Positions 2,015-62,441 of a DNA stretch of 64,000 bases are shown here, piece by piece (within the stretch, counting starts at the first letter, position 1; each line of letters begins with the position of its first letter). Below the pieces are notes generated by a model that was given only the letters and a program-made list of their open reading frames with translations, searched no databases and was not told the origin of the DNA. The DNA comes from Anaerophaga thermohalophila DSM 12881. GTDB taxonomy: Bacteria > Bacteroidota > Bacteroidia > Bacteroidales > Marinilabiliaceae. The position numbers and the translations under genes are program-made. Location: the NCBI RefSeq assembly GCF_000191885.1, contig NZ_AEWI01000037.1, forward strand, positions 1-64,000, read 5' to 3'.

Positions 2015-2155
2015 GAGTGCAGTATAAAAAGCATATTTTTGTCAAAATCAAGGCGTTTTAAATTTTTGCACCGGAGTTAACTTATTGTTAATGAGGATTC
2101 AAAAATTTAAAACAACAACGAGTTTGGCAACAAAGATGCTTTTTAGATTGGGCTC
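2015..2155 (+). mobile_element. 141-bp MITE, subfamily A, copy A1
   Basis: Imperfect palindrome with termini GAGTGCAGTATAAAAAGC and (reverse-complemented right end) GAGCCCAATCTAAAAAGC. The loop contains CCGGAGTTAAC and TTGTTAATGAGGAT. The flanks ATAAAT (2009-2014) and ATAAGT (2156-2161) match at 5 of 6 positions and read as a slightly decayed target-site duplication. It lies between the two-component pair and the phosphate permease. The rest of 1915-2262 holds no gene. Confidence 0.85.
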
Positions 2156-3915: not shown

Positions 3916-4056
3916 GAGTGCAGTATAAAAAGCATATTTTTGTCAAAATCAAGGCGTTTTAAATTTTTGTTCCGGAGTTAACTTGTTGTTAATAAGGATG
4001 CAAAAATTTAAAACAACAACGAGTTTGGCAACAAAGATGCTTTTTATACCGTACTC
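3916..4056 (+). mobile_element. 141-bp MITE, subfamily A, copy A2
   Basis: Same 141-bp element as A1, nearly identical along its length, except that the right end reads TATACCGTACTC. The flanks ATACTT and ATGTTT agree at only 4 of 6 positions, so the duplication has decayed or the ends have drifted. Confidence 0.83.
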
Positions 4057-6488: not shown

Positions 6489-6572
6489 TTAGTGCCCCCT
6501 GTCTATAAAACCGAAAAAAATTGTCCCAAATTATGTGTCGGTTCAGATGGTACTTTATGGATAGACACTAAA
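6489..6572. repeat. Repeat E, intact copy
   Basis: About 84 bp with inverted ends: TTAGTGCCCCCTGTCTATAAA on the left and TACTTTATGGATAGACACTAA on the right. It starts two bases after the stop codon of the 4Fe-4S gene. Related right ends occur at about 20954, 21277 and 48830. The 21.1 and 48.4 kb copies carry MITE insertions. Confidence 0.6.
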
Positions 6573-6659
6573 TAAGTATTTTCACCTAAAAAAGATAGGT
6601 AAAAAGCCTGTTTTATATAACATCAGACAAACCCACTTTTGCTGAAAAAAATTTGAACT

Positions 6660-14226: not shown

Positions 14227-14367
14227 GAGTGCGGTATAAAAAGCATATTTTTGTCAAAATCAAGGCGTTTTAAATTTTTGTACCGGAGTTAACTCGTTGT
14301 TAATGAGGATGCAAAAATTTAAAACAACAACGAGTTTGGCAACAAAGATGCTTTTTAGACCGGGCTC
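14227..14367 (+). mobile_element. 141-bp MITE, subfamily A, copy A3
   Basis: Full-length subfamily A element with termini GAGTGCGGTATAAAAAGC and (reverse complement of the right end) GAGCCCGGTCTAAAAAGC. The flanks ATAAAT (14221-14226) and ATAATT (14368-14373) match at 5 of 6 bases. It lies between arsC and arsM. Confidence 0.85.
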
Positions 14368-19497: not shown

Positions 19498-19571
19498 GAT
19501 TGAATTGTTTAAAAATATGAGCCCGCTATATGTTGCCAAACTTAAATATATTTTCGAAACACTCAAATTTT

Positions 19572-19637
19572 GAGCCTGTCCCTAAAAGGAGCTATTTGAC
19601 AAGTCTTGGTAAATTTGAAAAAACAAAGCTTCAATGC
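19572..19637. repeat. Remnant of the MITE superfamily (subfamily G left end)
   Basis: It begins GAGCCTGTCCCTAAAAGG and GAGCTATTTGACAAG, as in the 141-bp copy at 29437, but stops matching after about 50 bp. A GCTC near 19634-19637 may be the other end of an internally deleted copy. The remainder up to 19732 holds no gene. Confidence 0.45.
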
Positions 19638-19732
19638 TCATTTTATGCACCTGTTCATTTCTTTGAATGCTCACAACAATGTTAGAAAAAGATTAACTGT
19701 TTTCCAAAACTAAAATCGATGTATTCATCCGT

Positions 19733-19825
19733 TTATAATTCACACTACTGACTAAAAACTAATGACTAAATTACTTATATCTAAAAATCTGATAATCTAT
19801 TACGGCAATCTTTGTCATGCTCGTT
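19733..19825. repeat. Repeat D, copy 3 (partial)
   Basis: Same blocks as repeat D at 1-200: TTTATAATTCACACTACTG, GACTAAAAACTAATGACTAA, ATCTAAAAATCTGATAATC and CATGCTCGTTTCAT, in the same orientation as copy 1. Confidence 0.7.
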
Positions 19826-19916
19826 TCATTCCTAAAAGTCTCTTTTTTCCCATATTTGTAATCACACAACTAACATAAACAGATTACAAAGGCTCAATAA
19901 CTCACACTTATTCGAT

Positions 19917-20915
19917 ATGAAACTTTTCAAATTATTGTCAGTACTTCCACTGATGCTCGTTTTTGTTTCGGAAGCCGATGCTTCCTATAGGACTAAAATC
20001 ACCGTTGCCAAAGACGGAAGTGGCGACTACACTTCGCTTCAGGAGGCGATTTATGACACGAAAGCGTTTCCCGACAAACGCATCACCATTTACGTGAAGA
20101 AAGGGACCTACAAAGAAAAAGTGAATATCCCGGCTTTCAACACTCACCTTTCAATCATTGGAGAGGACCCGGAAAAAACCATCATTACCTGGGACGATCA
20201 TTTTAAAAAGATTGACAAGGGGCGCAACAGCACATTTTACACTTACACGATGAAAGTGGAAGCCAACGATTTCTATGCAGAGAATCTGACCATTCAAAAC
20301 ACGGCAGGAGATGTGGGGCAAGCCGTGGCCCTTCACTTAACAGGCGACAGGGTTGTATTCCGAAATTGCCGCATACTCGGACACCAGGATACCTTTTATG
20401 GTGCGGGGGAAAGCAGCCGCCAATACTTTAGCCAGTGCTATTTTGAAGGAACAACCGACTTTATTTTTGGAGATGCCACCGTATTGTTCGAAGATTGTGA
20501 AATCCACAGCCTGGCCAATTCATACATTACAGCCGCCAGCACACCTGCATGGAAAGATTTCGGCTTTGTTTTCCTGGATTGCAATCTTACTGCCGGTGAA
20601 GCGGTTAAGGAGGTATATCTGGGCAGGCCATGGCGCGATTATGCCAAAGTAGCATTCCTGAATTGTTATATGGGCAATCACATTCATCCTCAGGGCTGGG
20701 CAAACTGGAAAGGCACAGACCGTGACCGGACCGCCAACTTTTCTGAATACGGAAATACCGGCCCTGGCTCCAAACTAAGCAACAGAATTACCTGGATGCA
20801 TCGTCTGACAGATGAGCAGGCGCAGCAATATAAAATTGAAATCATACTGGCTACCGTCTGCAACAAAGAGGCAGGCCTTGAAATGTGGATATCCAGAAGA
20901 GCTGAGAGTGAATAA
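19917..20915 (+). CDS. Pectinesterase, carbohydrate esterase family 8
   Basis: Secreted or periplasmic enzyme that removes methyl esters from homogalacturonan, 332 residues with a signal peptide (cleavage near 22, EADA-SYR). CE8 active-site motifs are intact: GHQDTFYG (Asp158), TTDFIFGDA (Asp181) and LGRPW (Arg237), on a right-handed beta-helix scaffold. The C-terminus after about 310 does not match the usual family end. It is a single gene, without a polysaccharide lyase, SusCD pair or other pectin gene nearby, so it is not part of a recognisable PUL here. Confidence 0.9.
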   Translation: MKLFKLLSVLPLMLVFVSEADASYRTKITVAKDGSGDYTSLQEAIYDTKAFPDKRITIYVKKGTYKEKVNIPAFNTHLSIIGEDPEKTIITWDDHFKKIDKGRNSTFYTYTMKVEANDFYAENLTIQNTAGDVGQAVALHLTGDRVVFRNCRILGHQDTFYGAGESSRQYFSQCYFEGTTDFIFGDATVLFEDCEIHSLANSYITAASTPAWKDFGFVFLDCNLTAGEAVKEVYLGRPWRDYAKVAFLNCYMGNHIHPQGWANWKGTDRDRTANFSEYGNTGPGSKLSNRITWMHRLTDEQAQQYKIEIILATVCNKEAGLEMWISRRAESE

Positions 20916-21068
20916 TCATCCGGCACTTCGGGAATAAATATTTAACACAGCAAATGGTACTTTATGGACTGATACCACTTAGCCTGCTTTTGAATTTGAA
21001 AGCGGTTGCCCGCATGTCTCAAAGTTTTTGTATTTTCGCAGCTTTAATAATGGCATAATAAGCGAATT

Positions 21069-21297
21069 GAGTCTGTCCCTGAAGGAGCTGTTTTCGACAA
21101 GGTCGAAGCACAAGAATTTTTGAAATGGTGAGTGCGGTATAAAAAGCATATTTTTGTCAAAATCAAGGCGTTTTAAATTTTTGTACCGGAGTTAACTCAT
21201 TGTTAATGAGGATGCAAAAATTTAAAACAACACTGAGTTTGGCAACAAAGATGCTTTTTAGACCGGGCTCAATGGTATTTTATGGACAGACACTAAA
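21069..21297. repeat. Repeat E/G-like element interrupted by MITE A4
   Basis: The left part (GAGTCTGTCCCTGAAGG, 21069 on) and the right part (TTTATGGACAGACACTAAAT, to 21297) resemble intergenic repeats at 29437, 6489 and 48830. The MITE at 21130-21270 splits it. Uninterrupted relatives read AAATGGTACTTTATG at 20951 and 48827, giving an empty-site comparison. The stretch 20916-21068 has another fragment of the same right end and no gene. Confidence 0.6.
21130..21270 (+). mobile_element. 141-bp MITE, subfamily A, copy A4, with perfect target duplication
   Basis: Full-length subfamily A copy. AATGGT occurs immediately on both sides (21124-21129 and 21271-21276). Related sequences without the insert have a single copy of this hexamer, so it is a genuine 6-bp duplication made on insertion. 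Confidence 0.93.
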
Positions 21298-21315
21298 TAC
21301 TATATAGATAACACC

Positions 21316-24105
21316 ATGGAGTACAATTTTAAAGAGATCGAAAAAAAGTGGCAAAAATACTGGAAAGACCAGAAAACCTATAAGGTTGATATTGACAAAA
21401 ACCGGCCAAAATACTATGTTCTTGACATGTTTCCCTACCCTTCGGGAGCAGGGTTACACGTGGGACATCCGCTGGGATATATAGCATCCGATATTTTCAG
21501 CCGGTACAAAAGATCTTCCGGATTTAATGTACTTCACCCCATGGGATACGATGCTTATGGCCTCCCGGCCGAACAGTATGCTATTCAAACCGGACAACAT
21601 CCGGCGATAACCACCGAAAACAATATTAAAAGATACCGTGAACAGCTCGACAAAATAGGTTTCTCTTATGACTGGGACCGTGAAGTAAAAACCTGTGATC
21701 CCAAATACTATCACTGGACCCAGTGGGCTTTTATTAAAATGTTCCATCACTATTACGACAAAAAAGCCGATAAAGCACTGCCAATTGAAGAACTGATTAA
21801 TAAATTTAATACTTCCGGTACAAAGGATGTAGATGCTGCATGTTCTCAATCGCTCAGTTTTTCTGCCGAAGAGTGGAAAAAAATGAGCGAGAAAGAACAA
21901 CAGGAAGTACTGCTTAATTATCGCATTGCCTACCTGGCAGATACGATGGTAAACTGGTGCCCGGCACTCGGAACTGTATTGGCCAACGATGAAGTAAAGG
22001 ATGGAGTGTCTCTTCGTGGAGGCCACCCGGTCGAACAAAAAGTGATGCGCCAGTGGTCACTCAGAGTTTCTGCTTATGCAGAACGATTGCTCAAAGGCCT
22101 GGACACTATTGACTGGACAGAATCGCTCAAAGAAATCCAGAAGAACTGGATAGGCCGCTCCGAAGGTGCTGAAATGGTTTTCCCCGTAAAAAATTCAGAT
22201 GTGGAAATGAAAATTTTCACCACCCGGCCCGACACAGTATTCGGGGTCACTTTTATGGTACTGGCCCCTGAAAGTGAATTGGTTGATAAAATAGTTACGT
22301 CCGACAAAAAAGCCGAAGTTGACCAATATATTAAGGATGCCAGGAAACGCACCGAAAGGGAAAGAATGTCGGAAGTAAAAAAAATGACCGGCGTTTTTAC
22401 AGGAGCTTATGCCATTAATCCGCTGAACAATGAAGAAGTTCCCGTATGGGTGAGTGACTATGTCCTGGCCGGTTACGGAACAGGAGCCATTATGGCGGTT
22501 CCGGCACACGACAGTCGCGATTTTGCTTTTGCCCGCACCTTTGATCTGCCCATCGTTCAGGTTGTCGTTCCCCGGGGAGAAGAGCCCGGCGATATAAACA
22601 AATGGGACGATGCAAAAGATTCCAAAGAAGGCTACATGATCAATTCAGGATTCCTGAATGATCTGAATGTTCCCGAAGCCATCGTAAAGATCAACGAATA
22701 CATCCGCGAAAAAGGCCTTGGTGAAGTAAAAGTAAATTACCGCCTCCGCGATGCTATTTTCAGCCGTCAACGTTATTGGGGCGAACCATTCCCCATTTAT
22801 TACAAGGACGGAATGCCCTACACGCTTGATGAGTCGGAACTTCCCCTTGAACTTCCGGATGTTGACAAATATCTGCCCACCGACAAAGGTGAGCCGCCGC
22901 TGGGGCGCGCCAAAAACTGGAAAACCAAAGAAGGATATCCCCTTGAATTAAACACCATGCCCGGCTTTGCCGGATCATCAGCCTATTACCTGCGCTACAT
23001 GGACCCCCATAATGATCAGATGCTGGTCAGCCCCGAAGCCAACCAGTACTGGCAGAATGTTGACCTCTATATCGGTGGTACCGAACATGCAACAGGACAT
23101 CTCATCTACTCCCGTTTCTGGAACAAGTTCCTTTACGACCTTGGGTTGGTTTGCAAACCGGAACCTTTCCGGAAGCTCATCAACCAGGGAATGATACAGG
23201 GGCGATCCAATTTTGTTTACAGAATCAAAGGGACCAATACCTTTGTGTCTTACAACCTTAAAAATGATTATGATGTTACTCCCATTCACGTGGATGTAAA
23301 TATCGTACATAACGATATCCTCGATATCGATGCCTTCAAAAAATGGAATCCCGAGTACAAAGATGCCGAATTCATCCTCGAGGAAGGCGATAAATATGTA
23401 TGCGGATGGGCGGTTGAAAAAATGTCTAAATCAATGTTCAACGTGGTTAATCCCGACGACATCATTGAGCAATACGGTGCTGACACCCTTCGCCTCTATG
23501 AAATGTTCCTTGGCCCCCTGGAGCAATCCAAACCCTGGGATACCAACGGCATTGACGGTGTACATAAATTCCTTCGCAAAACCTGGAGACTCTTTACCGA
23601 CCGGGATGATAACGTACTCGTAACCGACGAGACACCTTCAAAAGCAGAGCTTAAAGTATTGCACCGAACCATTTCAAAAGTCACTGACGATATCGAGCGC
23701 TTTTCCTTTAATACCTGTGTCAGCGCTTTCATGATATGTGTTAACGAACTCAGCGACCTGAAATGCCATAAACGGGCCATCCTGGAGCCGCTGCTGGTTC
23801 TTCTTTCGCCATTTGCTCCACACATGACGGAAGAACTCTGGCACTTATCGGGACACAACGATTCAATTGTTGATGCTACCTGGCCTGAAGCAGAAGAAAA
23901 CTATCTGAAAGATGACACCGTGATCTACCCTGTTTCTTTCAACGGCAAAATGCGGTTTAAACTGGAAATGCCTGCCGGAGCAGACCATGCTGAAATAGAA
24001 AAAGCCGCCCTGGAACATGAGGGGGCCGCCAAATGGATAGAAGGAAAAACCATCCGAAAAGTGATTATTGTTCCAGGCAAGATCATAAACATTGTTGTGT
24101 CGTAA
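21316..24105 (+). CDS. leuS: Leucyl-tRNA synthetase
   Basis: Class I synthetase charging tRNA-Leu, 929 residues. The HIGH motif is HVGH (48-51) in [16 protein letters not shown], and the KMSKS motif is intact (702-706). Between them lies the CP1 editing domain, with [18 protein letters not shown] and [16 protein letters not shown], the T-rich and aspartate-containing editing sites. The C-terminal anticodon-binding region includes [16 protein letters not shown]. Length is normal for Bacteroidetes LeuS. A MITE lies just upstream of the promoter region. Confidence 0.97.
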
Positions 24106-29436: not shown

Positions 29437-29577
29437 GAGTCTGATCCTAAAAGAGCTATTTTTGTCAAAGTCGAGGCACAGGAAATTCTTGAACCGAAAT
29501 TAACTAAATGTTTATGAGAATTTAAAAATTTACTACACCTATGAGATTGACAAAAAGAAACTTTCTGAAGTAGACTC
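29437..29577 (+). mobile_element. 141-bp MITE, diverged subfamily G
   Basis: Exactly 141 bp, with termini GAGTCTGATCCTAAAAG and (reverse complement of the right end) GAGTCTACTTCAGAAAG. It is flanked by a perfect 6-bp duplication, AACAGT (29431-29436 and 29578-29583). The interior aligns with subfamily A: ATTTTTGTCAAAGTCGAGGC, TTGAACCGAAATTAAC, TTATGAGAATTTAAAAATT. It lies between rnc and rprX. Confidence 0.88.
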
Positions 29578-29690: not shown

Positions 29691-31292
29691 ATGAGCAGGA
29701 AATTCATTTGGGTATTGACCATTATTATAGCTTTTACTCTGGCGGGACTGATCTATATCCAGACCCTGTGGATAAAAAATGCTACGAAAATAAAGGAGGA
29801 CCATTTCGATCAGACGGTACGGCAAGTGATGGATCAGGTTATTACCCGTCTTGAAATGAATGAAACATCGAGATTAGGTGCTCAGCTTAAATTAAACCCC
29901 ATCAACAATCTGCCCGAAAATCTTCGCAAAGAAAACAAATATTTCTCAGGCCAAAGCCACCAACCCCGGAGTGAAGAAGACCCGCAACTCGACATTACCT
30001 TTGATTTCTTTATCCAGGGTTCGAAAATGGATACCGAGTTTTCAACCTACAAAAAGGATTCATTGGTTTTTTCCTATCGGGAAACCACTCCGATGATATT
30101 CAATAAATCGGAGGTAACGGACCCGCTGGAAATTGCTTTCAACAACATCCAGCATCAGGTTCGCAATAAGATGGAAGAACAACGGAAAAGACTTCTTAAA
30201 GACCTTTTTGATGATGTGCCGATAGAGCAACGAGTGGATCGTGAACTGATTGATGCTTTTCTGCTAAAAGAATTTGAAGAAAAAGGCATAAAACTGCCTT
30301 ACGAGTTTTCGATTGTGGATTCGCGCGGCAAACGTGTAATGTCAACAGTTGGTTTCGATGAAAGTAAGGCCAATAAAATTCACCAGAAATACCTGTTCCC
30401 AAACGATTTGCACCCTAAAGCCAACCACATACAGCTCTATTTTCCCGAACGGCCTAACTACATCATGGATTCGATGGGAATGGTAATACCAAGCGCTGTT
30501 TTTACATTAATTATGGTACTGGCCTCTATCCTGACACTGATAATCATTGTCCGGCAAAAAAGGCTTGATGAGATAAAAAACGATTTCATCAACAACATGA
30601 CCCATGAATTTAAGACACCAATTTCCACAATATCGTTGGCATCACAAATGTTAAAAGATGGCTCGATAGCGAAAAGTCCTGATAGTCTGAAACATATATC
30701 AAGTGTGATACAGGACGAAAGCAAAAGATTGAGTTTTCAGGTTGAAAAAGTCCTGCAAATGGCTATCTTTGAAAAAGGAAGTGCCGGTTTAAAGATCAAA
30801 AAGGTGAATATTAACGAGCTTATTGCCAAAGTCACCAATAACTTTAAGCTGAAGGTAGAAAACAAAGACGGGCAGATCATTGAAAAACTGGAAGCCAAGA
30901 ATCCGACGGTTTACGTGGACGAAGTACATTTTACAAACGTTATTCATAACCTGCTCGACAATGCACTGAAATACCGCCGTGGAAAGCCGGTTTTTTATGT
31001 AAAAACATGGAACCGTCCGAAAAATGGTGTTGTAATATCCATAGAAGATAACGGCATGGGTATTTCAAAAGAAAATATAAAGCGTATCTTTGAAAAGTTT
31101 TACCGGGTACCCACCGGCAACATACACAACGTAAAAGGATTTGGTCTTGGGCTTGCTTATGTCAAAAAGATTGTAGAAGACCATGGCGGGACTATTACTG
31201 TTGAAAGTGAATTAAATACAGGTACGAAATTTGAAATTTTTTTACCCTTTAAAAATACCAAGGAATGGAAAAAGAATATAAAATTCTCCTGA
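29691..31292 (+). CDS. rprX: Sensor histidine kinase RprX-like
   Basis: 533 residues. TM1 (about 5-25) and TM2 (about 260-283) bracket a ~235-residue periplasmic sensor region. The H-box is NMTHEFKTPIS (His305), followed by N-, G1- (EDNGMGIS) and G2-boxes (GFGLGLAYV). Size, topology and pairing match RprX of Bacteroides. The gene overlaps the response-regulator gene by 28 bp. The stimulus is unknown. TATTTTTG just 5 bp before the ATG could be a -7 box, but no good -33 box is at the right distance. Confidence 0.88.
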   Translation: MSRKFIWVLTIIIAFTLAGLIYIQTLWIKNATKIKEDHFDQTVRQVMDQVITRLEMNETSRLGAQLKLNPINNLPENLRKENKYFSGQSHQPRSEEDPQLDITFDFFIQGSKMDTEFSTYKKDSLVFSYRETTPMIFNKSEVTDPLEIAFNNIQHQVRNKMEEQRKRLLKDLFDDVPIEQRVDRELIDAFLLKEFEEKGIKLPYEFSIVDSRGKRVMSTVGFDESKANKIHQKYLFPNDLHPKANHIQLYFPERPNYIMDSMGMVIPSAVFTLIMVLASILTLIIIVRQKRLDEIKNDFINNMTHEFKTPISTISLASQMLKDGSIAKSPDSLKHISSVIQDESKRLSFQVEKVLQMAIFEKGSAGLKIKKVNINELIAKVTNNFKLKVENKDGQIIEKLEAKNPTVYVDEVHFTNVIHNLLDNALKYRRGKPVFYVKTWNRPKNGVVISIEDNGMGISKENIKRIFEKFYRVPTGNIHNVKGFGLGLAYVKKIVEDHGGTITVESELNTGTKFEIFLPFKNTKEWKKNIKFS

Positions 31293-35552: not shown

Positions 35553-35693
35553 GAGTGCAGTATAAAAAGCATATTTTTGTCAAAATCAAGGCGTTTTAAA
35601 TTTTTGTACCGGAGTTAACTTGTTGTTAATGAGGATGCAAAAATTTAAAACAACACCGAGTTTGGCAACAAAGATGCTTTTTAGACTGGGCTC
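35553..35693 (+). mobile_element. 141-bp MITE, subfamily A, copy A5, with perfect target duplication
   Basis: Full-length copy flanked by TAAGAT on both sides (35547-35552 and 35694-35699). The homologous repeat at 41.46 kb has a single copy of this hexamer (ATCTTA, 41462-41467, reverse strand) and no insert, which is a second empty-site proof of mobility. Confidence 0.94.
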
Positions 35694-43751: not shown

Positions 43752-43892
43752 GAGTGCAGTCTAAAAAGCCTTTTGACCCCTAAATCCCCTAAAGGGGACT
43801 TTTTCAAACTGCTGATTTTTAGCAGTTCCCCTTTAGAGGTCAGGGGTAAAAATGTAAAAATCAGCAGTTTGAAGGCTTTTTATACTACACTC
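43752..43892 (-). mobile_element. 141-bp MITE, subfamily B, copy B3
   Basis: Same core as B1 and B2 in the opposite orientation, with termini GAGTGCAGTCTAAAAAGC and (reverse complement of the right end) GAGTGTAGTATAAAAAGC. The flanks AATATT and AATTAT share 4 of 6 bases. Confidence 0.85.
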
Positions 43893-44083
43893 AATTATTT
43901 ACCCAAAATCCGAGAACAAAATCATATTTTAGATGCATGATTGCTGAAAAAATCAGTGGTGGTGGGTCAAAATCGCTTAGTAATTGTACACGTAAAGTGG
44001 CAAAAGATTTCTAATCCATACTTTTTGTATAATACGATACCGAAATCCTTTTAAAATTTTTATCAACATTTTATGGCAATCAT

Positions 44084-44842
44084 ATGAAAACAGAAGATAT
44101 ACTCGGAATTATACCTGCAAGGTACGCATCAACCAGATTTCCAGGAAAGCCGCTTGCCGATATTGGTGGAAAACCGATGATACAGCGTGTATATGAACAA
44201 GCCTCGAAAGCGTTAACGCAGCTTGTCGTAGCAACCGATGACACCAGAATTATGGAAGCTGTTAAAAATTTCGGTGGCGTGTGTGTAATGACTTCCGACA
44301 AGCACCGCAGCGGAACTGACCGCTGCACTGAAGCGCTTGACAAAACCGAGGCATTAAACAATCGTCAATATCAGGTGGTTGTGAACATTCAGGGAGATGA
44401 ACCATTCATCGATCCACGGCAAATTGAAAAACTTGTTATGTGTTTCTACAATGCCGAAACCGAAATTGCAACACTGGTAAAGCCACTGAAAAACAATAAT
44501 GATCTATTCGATCCGAACAAACCCAAAGTTGTTTTGAACAGCAGCTCACAGGCATTATATTTCAGTCGTTCGCCCATCCCCCATCTGCGAAATTTCCCTA
44601 AAGAGGAATGGCATCAGCACCACAATTATTATATACATATCGGACTCTACGCGTATCGTACCGATGTGCTTAGGGAAATAACCCTCCTCAAGCCCGCTCC
44701 CCTGGAAATAGCCGAGTCACTGGAACAACTGAGGTGGCTCGAAAACGGATATGCAATTACTACCCGCAAAACTGAATTTGAAAGCTGGTCCATAGACAGC
44801 CCTATGGACATTGATGAACTCAAGAGTAAAGGAATATTTTAA
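44084..44842 (+). CDS. kdsB: 3-deoxy-manno-octulosonate cytidylyltransferase
   Basis: Activates KDO to CMP-KDO for lipid A/LPS core synthesis, 252 residues. The nucleotide-binding start is IIPARYASTRFPGKPL (about 8-23). VVNIQGDEPFIDP (the metal/CTP site) and YFSRSPIP follow, all in family order. Single gene, plus strand. Confidence 0.95.
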   Translation: MKTEDILGIIPARYASTRFPGKPLADIGGKPMIQRVYEQASKALTQLVVATDDTRIMEAVKNFGGVCVMTSDKHRSGTDRCTEALDKTEALNNRQYQVVVNIQGDEPFIDPRQIEKLVMCFYNAETEIATLVKPLKNNNDLFDPNKPKVVLNSSSQALYFSRSPIPHLRNFPKEEWHQHHNYYIHIGLYAYRTDVLREITLLKPAPLEIAESLEQLRWLENGYAITTRKTEFESWSIDSPMDIDELKSKGIF

Positions 44843-44999
44843 AACTTCACCCATCAGAAGCAGAGACGTAATAACGCGAAGTTTTTATTATGACAGAGTT
44901 ATGATCGTTTTCCCAAATTTCATAAACAATTGACCAACATGATTTGTATAAATTTAACGAAGTATTGTATAAATACTGGAAACCAAATACTTAACATCT

Positions 45000-45842
45000 A
45001 TGAAGACTAAAGTCATAATACTAATTGTCACAGCCATTTTCTTCATAACATTCAACACCAATTCGGAAGAGGTCTCAACAAAAAGCGGAACTTTTAACAC
45101 AGAGAAAGACCTGCTGCTGATACAATTTGATTGTAAGACCGATGTCGATGACATCCACACTATGGCAGCCCTGGCCACGCTGATGTCAGAAGAAAATTTT
45201 TCAGAAGTAAATTACCATGTTGTTACCGGTGCTTATGGCATTCAAGAGGGGCTTTACGTTCCTCCAAATGACTTACTCCAACTTGCTTTTCGTGATAACT
45301 GGACAGATGCACATAAAAGTTTTGAATCGGCTGTTAATAAAGTAAAAGAAATAGTTAAAACAACCCTTAAAAATCAAGGTAATGTATGGATTGCAGATGC
45401 CGGGCAGTCGGATTTTACCGCTGAAGTAGTTAAAGCAGTCAAAGCTGATATCCCGGAAATAAACACTTCACAACGCATTCATGTAGTGCAACATGCAAAC
45501 TGGAATGAAGAAGTGACTTCCCCCCTGCGTCTGAGATATGTAAAAGATAATACCTGTTATCATAAAATACCTGACGGAAACGCCGTTGGAAATGGTTCAC
45601 CGGGATTTCGTTCTCCTGATTATACACACTGGCAAGATAAAGTTACTGACCCCCGATTGGTGGAAATATGGCAGCTTGCCATTGAAATAGCGAACAAATA
45701 CAATGGGAAAGACGGACGCTACAATAACAAAACCATCTCAGCCGGTGGTTTGGACTTCTCTGATCTCTCCGAAGTTTGTTGGATATTGGGATTAAATGAC
45801 ATAAAAGATACTGAAGAATTCTTTAATTTTATTTCTGATTAG
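45000..45842 (+). CDS. Secreted protein, possible nucleoside hydrolase-like fold
   Basis: 280 residues with a signal peptide (hydrophobic 5-18, cut near NTNS-EE). The mature protein begins LLLIQFDCKTDVDDIHTMAALATL. Its Asp spacing resembles the DxDPGxDD calcium-binding motif of inosine-uridine nucleoside hydrolases, without being a clear match. NVWIADAGQSDFTAEVV and RIHVVQHANWNEE fit a Rossmann-like nucleoside-hydrolase layout. The substrate is unknown. It has no operon partner. Confidence 0.5.
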   Translation: MKTKVIILIVTAIFFITFNTNSEEVSTKSGTFNTEKDLLLIQFDCKTDVDDIHTMAALATLMSEENFSEVNYHVVTGAYGIQEGLYVPPNDLLQLAFRDNWTDAHKSFESAVNKVKEIVKTTLKNQGNVWIADAGQSDFTAEVVKAVKADIPEINTSQRIHVVQHANWNEEVTSPLRLRYVKDNTCYHKIPDGNAVGNGSPGFRSPDYTHWQDKVTDPRLVEIWQLAIEIANKYNGKDGRYNNKTISAGGLDFSDLSEVCWILGLNDIKDTEEFFNFISD

Positions 45843-45875
45843 TGCGTTGACAAAACCCTATATGCAGGCGGCGGA

Positions 45876-45928
45876 TTCTTTGCAGTGCAAAGCAGTCACC
45901 CGGCTATGCCGCTTTGCACTGCAAAGAA
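45876..45928. repeat. 18-bp perfect inverted repeat (hairpin)
   Basis: TTCTTTGCAGTGCAAAGC (45876-45893) and its exact reverse complement (45911-45928) with a 17-base loop. The outer flanks also pair weakly (GGCGGATT / AATCTGCC). There is no T tract. It is 34 bp after the preceding stop codon. Confidence 0.75.
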
Positions 45929-46091
45929 AGCCGAACGTAATCTGCCGTACCGAAGATGGTTCTGCCATTGAACCGGGCAGGTGAGTTAATTTTTCCTATT
46001 CTGAAATTTGAAACGAATGATCTATTTCAGGTTGTTTGTGCACTTCACCCGACTACTGAATGTTGACTATAAACAACTATTTACTTACTTT

Positions 46092-46191
46092 CATCAGTAT
46101 AAAACAAGTCTAAGTTATTGGCCTGATGGAACTCGCATGAATGAGATTTATACATGTTCTTATGTGACAATTTTTGTCATGCTCGTTTCAT
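46092..46191. repeat. Repeat C, copy C2
   Basis: CATCAGTATAAAACAAGTC, GATGGAACTCGCATGAATG, ACATGTTCTTATGTGACAA and CATGCTCGTTTCATT, the same family as C1, C3 and C4. No gene starts at its edge. 45843-46386 holds no gene otherwise. Confidence 0.7.
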
Positions 46192-46251
46192 TCGGAGGCA
46201 ATAATATTGTCCCGATTCTGTTTCTTTCCCTTTATTTTTCTTATATTGTGT

Positions 46252-46292
46252 ACAATGAGTTTGACAACAAAGATGCTTTTTATACCCTACTC
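46252..46292 (+). mobile_element. Right-end fragment of a subfamily A MITE
   Basis: AATGAGTTTGACAACAAAG followed by ATGCTTTTTATACCCTACTC, the last ~41 bp of the element. The rest is absent. Confidence 0.6.
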
Positions 46293-48405: not shown

Positions 48406-48469
48406 ATAGTGCCCGTCAACAAAGTCGGAAAAAATTGTGTCTGTTCAGAAAGTGTCATTTACAAGGCTT

Positions 48470-48610
48470 GAGAGCAGTATAAAAAGCATATTTTTGTCAA
48501 AATCAAGGCGCTTTAAATTTTTGTACCGGAGTTAACTTGCTGTTAATGAGGATGCAAAAATTTAAAACAACAACGAGTTTGGCAACAAAGATGCTTTTTA
48601 GACTGGGCTC
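48470..48610 (+). mobile_element. 141-bp MITE, subfamily A, copy A6, with 7-bp duplication
   Basis: Full-length copy with left end GAGAGCAGTATAAAAAGC. It is flanked by AAGGCTT on both sides (48463-48469 and 48611-48617), a perfect 7-bp target duplication. Confidence 0.92.
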
Positions 48611-48656
48611 AAGGCTTGCAAAGCCGCCAAAACCGAGTCCCGAGTATGCTTTTTAT

Positions 48657-48755
48657 TCATCAGTATAAAATTAGTCTAAGTTACTGGTCTGATGGAACTC
48701 ACATGATTGATTATATACATGTTCTTTTGTGACAATCTTTGTCATGCTCGTTTCA
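48657..48755. repeat. Repeat C, copy C3
   Basis: TCATCAGTATAAAATTAGTC through GATGGAACTCACATGATTG to CTTTGTCATGCTCGTTTCA, over 80 percent alike to C2 by eye. It lies between glgB and the fusion gene, within repeat E. Confidence 0.7.
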
Positions 48756-48863
48756 TTGGTTTTTTTGAAAAAACCTTACAAAAGCTACCCTGGGATAAGT
48801 ATTTTGGCGGCAAGCTGTAACGCAGCAAATGGTACTTTATGAACAGACACTAAGTAAATCAGT

Positions 48864-62301: not shown

Positions 62302-62441
62302 GAGCCCGGTCTAAAAAGCATCTTTGTTGCCAAACTCGTTGTTGTTTTAAATTTTGCATCCTCATTAACAACAAGTTAACTCCGTTACAAGAATTTAAAA
62401 CGCCTTGATTTTGACAAAAATATGCTTTTTATACTGCACTC
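62302..62441 (-). mobile_element. 140-bp MITE, subfamily A, copy A7 (inverted)
   Basis: Reverse-orientation subfamily A copy. The flanks ATTGAT (62296-62301) and ATTCAT (62442-62447) match at 5 of 6 positions. It lies between sufE and the DUF59 gene. 62151-62603 holds no gene. Confidence 0.87.

Follow-up and report, generated by a model that had tools for sequence, protein, structure and literature searches.

The 141-bp sequence at positions 21130-21270 of the 64,000-nucleotide stretch of DNA analysed here (the window), which we refer to as copy A4, is very probably one member of a high-copy, non-autonomous and palindromic family of MITE type, presumably moved in trans, that duplicated 6 bp (in other copies also 7 and once 8 bp) of its target. 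We show that A4 is present here upstream of a putative leuS gene and that the orthologous locus in Anaerophaga thermohalophila Valhall lacks it. The family has the defining MITE features of a non-coding length below 500 bp, inverted repeats, direct repeats and a multicopy, AT-rich, intergenic stem-loop. The locus is made up of the following parts.

21130-21270, forward strand: element copy A4, 141 bp, GAGTGC...GGGCTC, a near full-length palindrome of 35% G+C
21124-21129, forward strand: left target-site duplication AATGGT of A4
21271-21276, forward strand: right target-site duplication AATGGT of A4
21129-21162, forward strand: left outer inverted-repeat arm of A4, 34 nt, 76% complementary to 21238-21271
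21238-21271, forward strand: right outer inverted-repeat arm of A4
21170-21196, forward strand: inner left arm of A4, 27 nt, 78% complementary to 21202-21228
21202-21228, forward strand: inner right arm of A4
21071-21083, forward strand: remnant of an inverted repeat smaller and older than A4, left end, pairing with 21279-21291 (85% complementary)
21271-21296, forward strand: right-end repeat AATGGTATTTTATGGACAGACACTAA, resembling the right end of family B
21316-24105, forward strand: ORF of 929 aa, by eye a leucyl-tRNA synthetase (leuS)

The palindrome of A4 consists of two nested pairs of inverted arms, its G+C content is 35% against 41.7% for the window, and its predicted fold as single-stranded DNA reaches -39.1 kcal/mol compared with -12.75 +/- 2.61 for shuffled sequences (z -10.1). 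None of the seven ORFs of at least 80 aa listed for 19500-22500 overlaps 21130-21270, and Rfam returned nothing at gathering score within the window. A4 seems to interrupt the older inverted-repeat remnant, whose end at 21071-21083 resembles, by eye only, the left arm of the old relative at 29437-29577. In a stricter search for family B (E 1e-6) A4 was not flagged as adjoining that family. Between the element and the ATG of the 929-aa ORF, which we take by eye to be leuS, there are 45 bases, and an effect of A4 on expression of this putative gene is possible.

A4 belongs to a family (family A) with several further copies in the window.

2015-2155, forward strand: full copy
3916-4056, forward strand: full copy
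14227-14367, forward strand: full copy
29437-29577, forward strand: old divergent relative, 141 bp, AACAGT on both sides, 75% identity to A4 over 117 bp
35553-35693, forward strand: full copy, duplication TAAGAT/TAAGAT
48470-48610, forward strand: full copy beside the left end of family B, 7-bp duplication AAGGCTT
62302-62441, reverse strand: full copy, 140 bp

The genome carrying the window (G000; 4.32 Mb in 211 contigs) was sampled over 1,589,449 bases or 36.8%, where 86 full-length copies and 172 matches in total make up 1.15% of the sequence; scaled to the whole genome this would amount to roughly 230 full-length copies and a similar number of partial copies, from a sample possibly biased upward. 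Densities in the sample may be slightly high since some stretches were picked near known matches and contig C4 repeats part of contig C211. The latter follows from a long element variant that L053:301-676 (C211) and L302:4417-4792 (C4) have in common together with its flank, which is identical over the 138 bases compared; a portion of G000 is thus assembled twice. A pattern for the left end matched 408 times at up to two mismatches (reversed-pattern control: 0), a figure that overstates copy number because two mismatches are enough for the consensus right end to fit the pattern as well. As judged against mechanically picked ORFs of at least 100 aa, 52 of 54 copies are intergenic and two overlap an ORF in part, compared with 13.4% intergenic for random placements. 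By sequence, the family occurs in 7 of the 71 genomes searched from the Marinilabiliaceae, to which host and congener belong (G000 included), and in 2 of 21 genera. One hairpin of 51 pairs fits 12 sequences from two genera, with 8 pairs showing a two-sided change that is kept in at least one sequence, although the covariation term is weak (-0.61 of -29.93 kcal/mol). At 48437-48610 the left end of family B (GTGTCTGTTCAGAAAGTGTCATTTACAAGG...) stops at the element copy 48470-48610, and an uninterrupted family-B relative in the congener's genome (G002) reads through as TTTACAAGGCTTGCG.

Target duplication was profiled in copies aligned to within three bases of the query's left end and two of its right, provided that the border resembled GAG/CTC and that 12 or more flanking bases were available; after removal of same-flank copies this left 130, of which 95 belong to family A, 33 to family D and 2 are old. 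Family D has the ends of A around a different interior with CCCCTAAATCCCCTAAAGGGGACTTT (window 43752-43893; L039:3394-3597; L042:6934-7129). In a first sample, left and right 6-mers were identical in 28 of 54 full copies (52%) but in 1.26% of mispaired flanks. Among the 95 non-redundant A copies from G000 and G002, 60 have exact duplications, and the 6-bp length that the sequence-only reading of this DNA had read off A4 holds for 49 of them, the others being 7 bp (10 copies) and 8 bp (1 copy); in the remaining 35 an exact duplication of at least 5 bp is absent. Mispaired flanks of A copies matched in 1.49%, a control that applies to 6 bp only. Exact duplications were also found in 18 of the 33 D copies (14 of six, 3 of seven and 1 of eight bp; mispaired 0.95%). 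The duplications mostly take the form A-N4-T or A-N5-T, 57 of the 60 in family A beginning with A and 59 ending with T.

This form bears directly on where the element ends. That A4 by itself fixes the borders to the base, as had been claimed, is overstated, since its hexamer is of the form A-NNNN-T and an element of 143 bp (T-GAG...CTC-A) that inserts into A-NNNN-T and duplicates 4 bp gives occupied and empty sites identical to those of the 6-bp model. Such a longer element would also account for the T that precedes GAG in 53 of 54 copies and for the A that follows CTC in 52 of 54. We nonetheless regard it as very improbable. Four of the 60 exact A copies have TAAGAT, TTTGAT, TTCTAT or ATAAAA in both flanks; among the 18 exact D copies, six likewise depart from A...T (AATAAA twice, ATTATA, TTATAT, TTTTATT and AAACATGC); in each case the odd outer base is duplicated in both flanks, as expected of target sequence, which favours the 6-bp model. 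Moreover, an A at the start and a T at the end are likewise found in all ten 7-bp duplications of family A. On the strength of the both-sided exceptions a 4-bp duplication was rejected, and the data place the outer A and T in the duplicated target rather than in the element.

An insertion at A4 had originally been argued from paralogous sequences in the window, on the grounds that A4 interrupts a repeat whose intact relatives at 20951 and 48827 read AAATGGTACTTTATG. The 141-bp insert at 21130-21270 does have AATGGT on both sides, and the relatives' sequence is found exactly at 48827-48841, although the other one lies at 20952-20966, one base off from where it had been placed. The regions that concern us here, including a third copy of the right-end repeat that had gone unmentioned, are these.

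20953-20975, forward strand: first claimed empty relative, resembling the right flank of A4 only
48828-48853, forward strand: second claimed empty relative, resembling the right flank of A4 only
6547-6574, forward strand: third copy of A4's right-end repeat

After the hexamer A4 matches the two relatives at 15/20 and 18/20 positions. Before it the matches drop to 4/20 and 6/20, which is chance level (random 20-mers, 5.3 +/- 2.0), and there the relatives match each other at 12/20. What the relatives have in common with the interrupted sequence is its right half alone, and on the left the similarity is too short, which is the condition for refutation that the sequence-only reading had itself set; these paralogous loci therefore prove no empty site, and they were rejected as such. 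A search of the joined A4 flanks against their own genome (40 of 120 first-look candidates scored) gives a similar picture: two of the 43 matches listed are pieces of the A4 locus, and each of the remaining 41 starts either with AAATGGT or no more than two bases into it. Both the dissimilar left flank and the uniform start of these matches would suit a mosaic, in which recombination had brought the element and the right-end repeat together, instead of the element having inserted into one pre-existing sequence. What makes a mosaic very improbable is the orthologous locus in G002, the sole congener among the 71 family genomes searched, which we take to be A. thermohalophila Valhall. The A4 region is collinear between the two genomes, and at the Valhall locus, which has no A4, the same left flank runs straight into AAATGGCGCTTTATG, so left and right are contiguous without the element. 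The left flanks agree at 9 of the 10 bases beside the hexamer, at 11/20 without gaps and at 73% over about 300 bases (BLAST).

The Valhall site carries an unrelated insert of about 118 bp (L140; contig C190 of G002, about 29970-30095) with ends CAATAG...CTATTG and TTTATG on both sides, which begins right after TTTATG, 10 bases past the end region of the hexamer. With this different insert a few bases off the position of A4, the site is not a pristine empty one. At three other positions the orthologous site is cleanly empty, with an overlap of exactly 6 bp between the flanks. The window's element at 29437-29577 (AACAGT) is occupied with L140 empty, L060:3428-3570 (ATAATT) is occupied with L222 empty and, in the reverse direction, L222:1068-1208 of Valhall is occupied (ATAGAT left, ACAGAT right) with L060 empty. 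These come from a comparison that started with 158 full copies from G000 (redundant loci included) and 66 from G002 and kept those with both 300-bp flanks matching the other genome within 1.5 kb, copies less than 320 bases from a stretch end being excluded. Its 20 rows divide into the 3 clean 6-bp cases, 3 rows (two loci) with a shared insertion and 14 that are unshared and more complex. Flanks at the two shared-insertion loci are 99.7-100% identical. Identity of 99.7-100% between G000 and A. thermohalophila is seen in the flanks of L161/L224 and L196/L116, compared with 73-94% in the window's collinear blocks; these near-identical loci may reflect recent exchange or assembly contamination, the contamination figure for the G000 genome being 5.39%. 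Taken together, a MITE insertion with a 6-bp duplication at A4 turns out to be the right conclusion, albeit by way of the Valhall locus, the three clean empty sites and the statistics of the 95 copies.

REP/REPIN sequences have a Y1 transposase (RAYT) as partner and no target duplication. That family A is a palindrome of this type spread by a Y1 (HUH) transposase, with hexamers due to chance, would fit its numerous, palindromic and intergenic copies, yet is hardly credible given identical 6-mers in about half of the copies of the first sample (28/54 against 1.26% mispaired) and exactly 6 bp in common at three orthologous sites; with target duplication present we rejected assignment to the REP/REPIN class.

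Under the preferred reading of A4 as a MITE-type copy moved in trans, a transposase would bind the ends GAGYNCRGTMTAAAAAGC common to A and D, cut the target with a stagger of 6-7 bases and join the element, and gap repair would then yield the duplication; such an enzyme would presumably be of DDE type. That two interiors, A and D, share their ends is what mobilisation in trans predicts. No family in the IS family table is known to combine a start in GAG with a duplication of 6-7 bp. It is conceivable, though on balance rather unlikely, that A and D are moved by a transposase group new to MITEs, characterised by GAGYNCRGTMTAAAAAG ends, A-N4/5-T targets and a 6-7-base stagger, whose source has been lost or is unassembled.

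No autonomous element with the ends of the family emerged from end-guided scans of 36.8% of G000 and 60 kb of G002. These scans (1.59 Mb of G000) gave 15 rows of end pairs with exact 6- or 7-bp duplications. Seven of these are element variants of 196-473 bp, L053 and L302 being one locus. The other eight (974-3919 bp, with 5-9 summed end mismatches) were rejected, as their ORFs by eye were host genes or none and no transposase was recognised among them; for the window pair at 44816-46292 there is, in addition, collinearity with A. thermohalophila over most of its length. Eight PF01609 and three PF00872 loci in G000 were considered as parents and dismissed, their own ends being different or unclear; L172 and L175 have inverted repeats without duplication, and the PF00872 locus L306 is partial. 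PF12762 and PF13612, the latter of which we take to stand for IS982, had 0 matches in G000, G002 and G039. Around lone GAG-type ends in G036, G037, G039 and G000 no long elements were found. In L177 a GAG-type end lies near an IS, outside that IS's own ends. L304 holds an element of IS256 type (PF00872); its ends are GAGACTGTAAAG... and it is flanked on either side by an 8-bp match, TAGTCTTT. A fragment of the right end of an A element lies upstream of this IS, outside its ends. L176, L178 and L299 carry IS1634-like elements with a 543-aa transposase, ends CGGAACTTCCTRTCT and 6-bp duplications. Those of L176 and L178 (TTAAAG and TTGGAT) agree in length with the duplications of the present family but are not of the A...T form, and the ends CGGAACTTCCTRTCT are unrelated to the family ends GAGYNCRGTMTAAAAAG; with terminal inverted repeats that differ, derivation as a MITE of the genome's own IS1634-like elements was rejected.

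In both L039 and L042, a D element appears to be fused to the right-hand part of an A element inside one common duplication. In five paired cases element position 87-89 is followed by family-C modules (TTCATC...GCTCGTTTCA) of about 100 bp, one to three of them by eye.

Loci with C modules: L043:2916-3388, L053:439-676, L060:7070-7339, L040:16169-16532 and L052:16437-16767, and in the window about 48650-48775

Family C also stands alone; with a conserved start TTCAT and end TTTCAT, it has 256 matches in 36.8% of the genome, and 22 of 243 C matches adjoin an element arm. This suggests that family C is a separate mobile repeat, perhaps, by analogy, of IS200/IS605 or REP type. A scan for end pairs with duplications gave 44 in the real sequence and 2 in shuffled sequence. 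Mini-elements of 36, 35, 37 and 39 bp lie at L069:9259-9294, in L185 near 2225 and 9808, and in L192 near 3925, with exact 6-bp duplications AATCAT, ATAAGT, ATATAA and ATTATT. The one in L069 is a close match to the final 36 bp of A, so that deletion between GAGT repeats of a full copy is just as likely an origin as transposition.

Elements of IS5 type duplicate 2-4 bp. The nearest published Bacteroidota cases we found are BrickBuilt and MITECca01. BrickBuilt or MITEPgRS (MITE464) of Porphyromonas gingivalis is always intergenic, with 19 copies in one strain and internal tandem repeats, and its ends GAGACCTTTGCA match ISPg elements of the IS5 family; its copies are flanked by CT, GAAA, AAAAA or, in four copies, no repeat (PMC4596501). 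Like the present family it is found in Bacteroidota and has ends starting with GAG and internal repeats, which are comparable to our modules of about 100 bp (PMC4596501). Our family differs in its ends GAGYNCRGTMTAAAAAGC, its duplication of mostly 6-7 bp and its copy number, with 86 full copies within the 36.8% of the genome sampled. An IS5-derived MITE of the BrickBuilt type was therefore rejected, the duplication being mostly 6-7 bp and only GAG agreeing with the ends given in PMC4596501. MITECca01, from the Cardinium endosymbiont of Oedothorax gibbosus, has 169 copies (3.5% of the chromosome) that are mostly intergenic and inside other mobile elements (PMC9769881). It resembles our family as a high-copy, mostly intergenic MITE; however, its parent has been identified in the IS982 family (PMC9769881), and PF13612 has 0 matches in our three genomes. 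Further afield, the review PMC10969869 gives 39-400 bp for Coxiella QMITE1 and 711 copies for ERIC in Photorhabdus, and describes nesting of repeat families for pneumococcal BOX, RUP and SPRITE. QMITE1/QMITE2 and ERIC are like our family, by description only, in size range, stem-loop and hundreds of copies, and differ in their hosts (PMC10969869). Searches of open-licence PMC papers turned up no description of the present family.

Two lessons extend beyond A4, namely that empty-site arguments built on paralogous repeats need checking on both flanks, and that duplications bounded by A...T make the border of an element ambiguous. The family described here is a high-copy bacterial MITE whose ends and target duplication rule have been measured and whose insertions differ between two congeners, of which one is a named strain; one of its copies, A4, lies 45 bases ahead of the gene we read as leuS.
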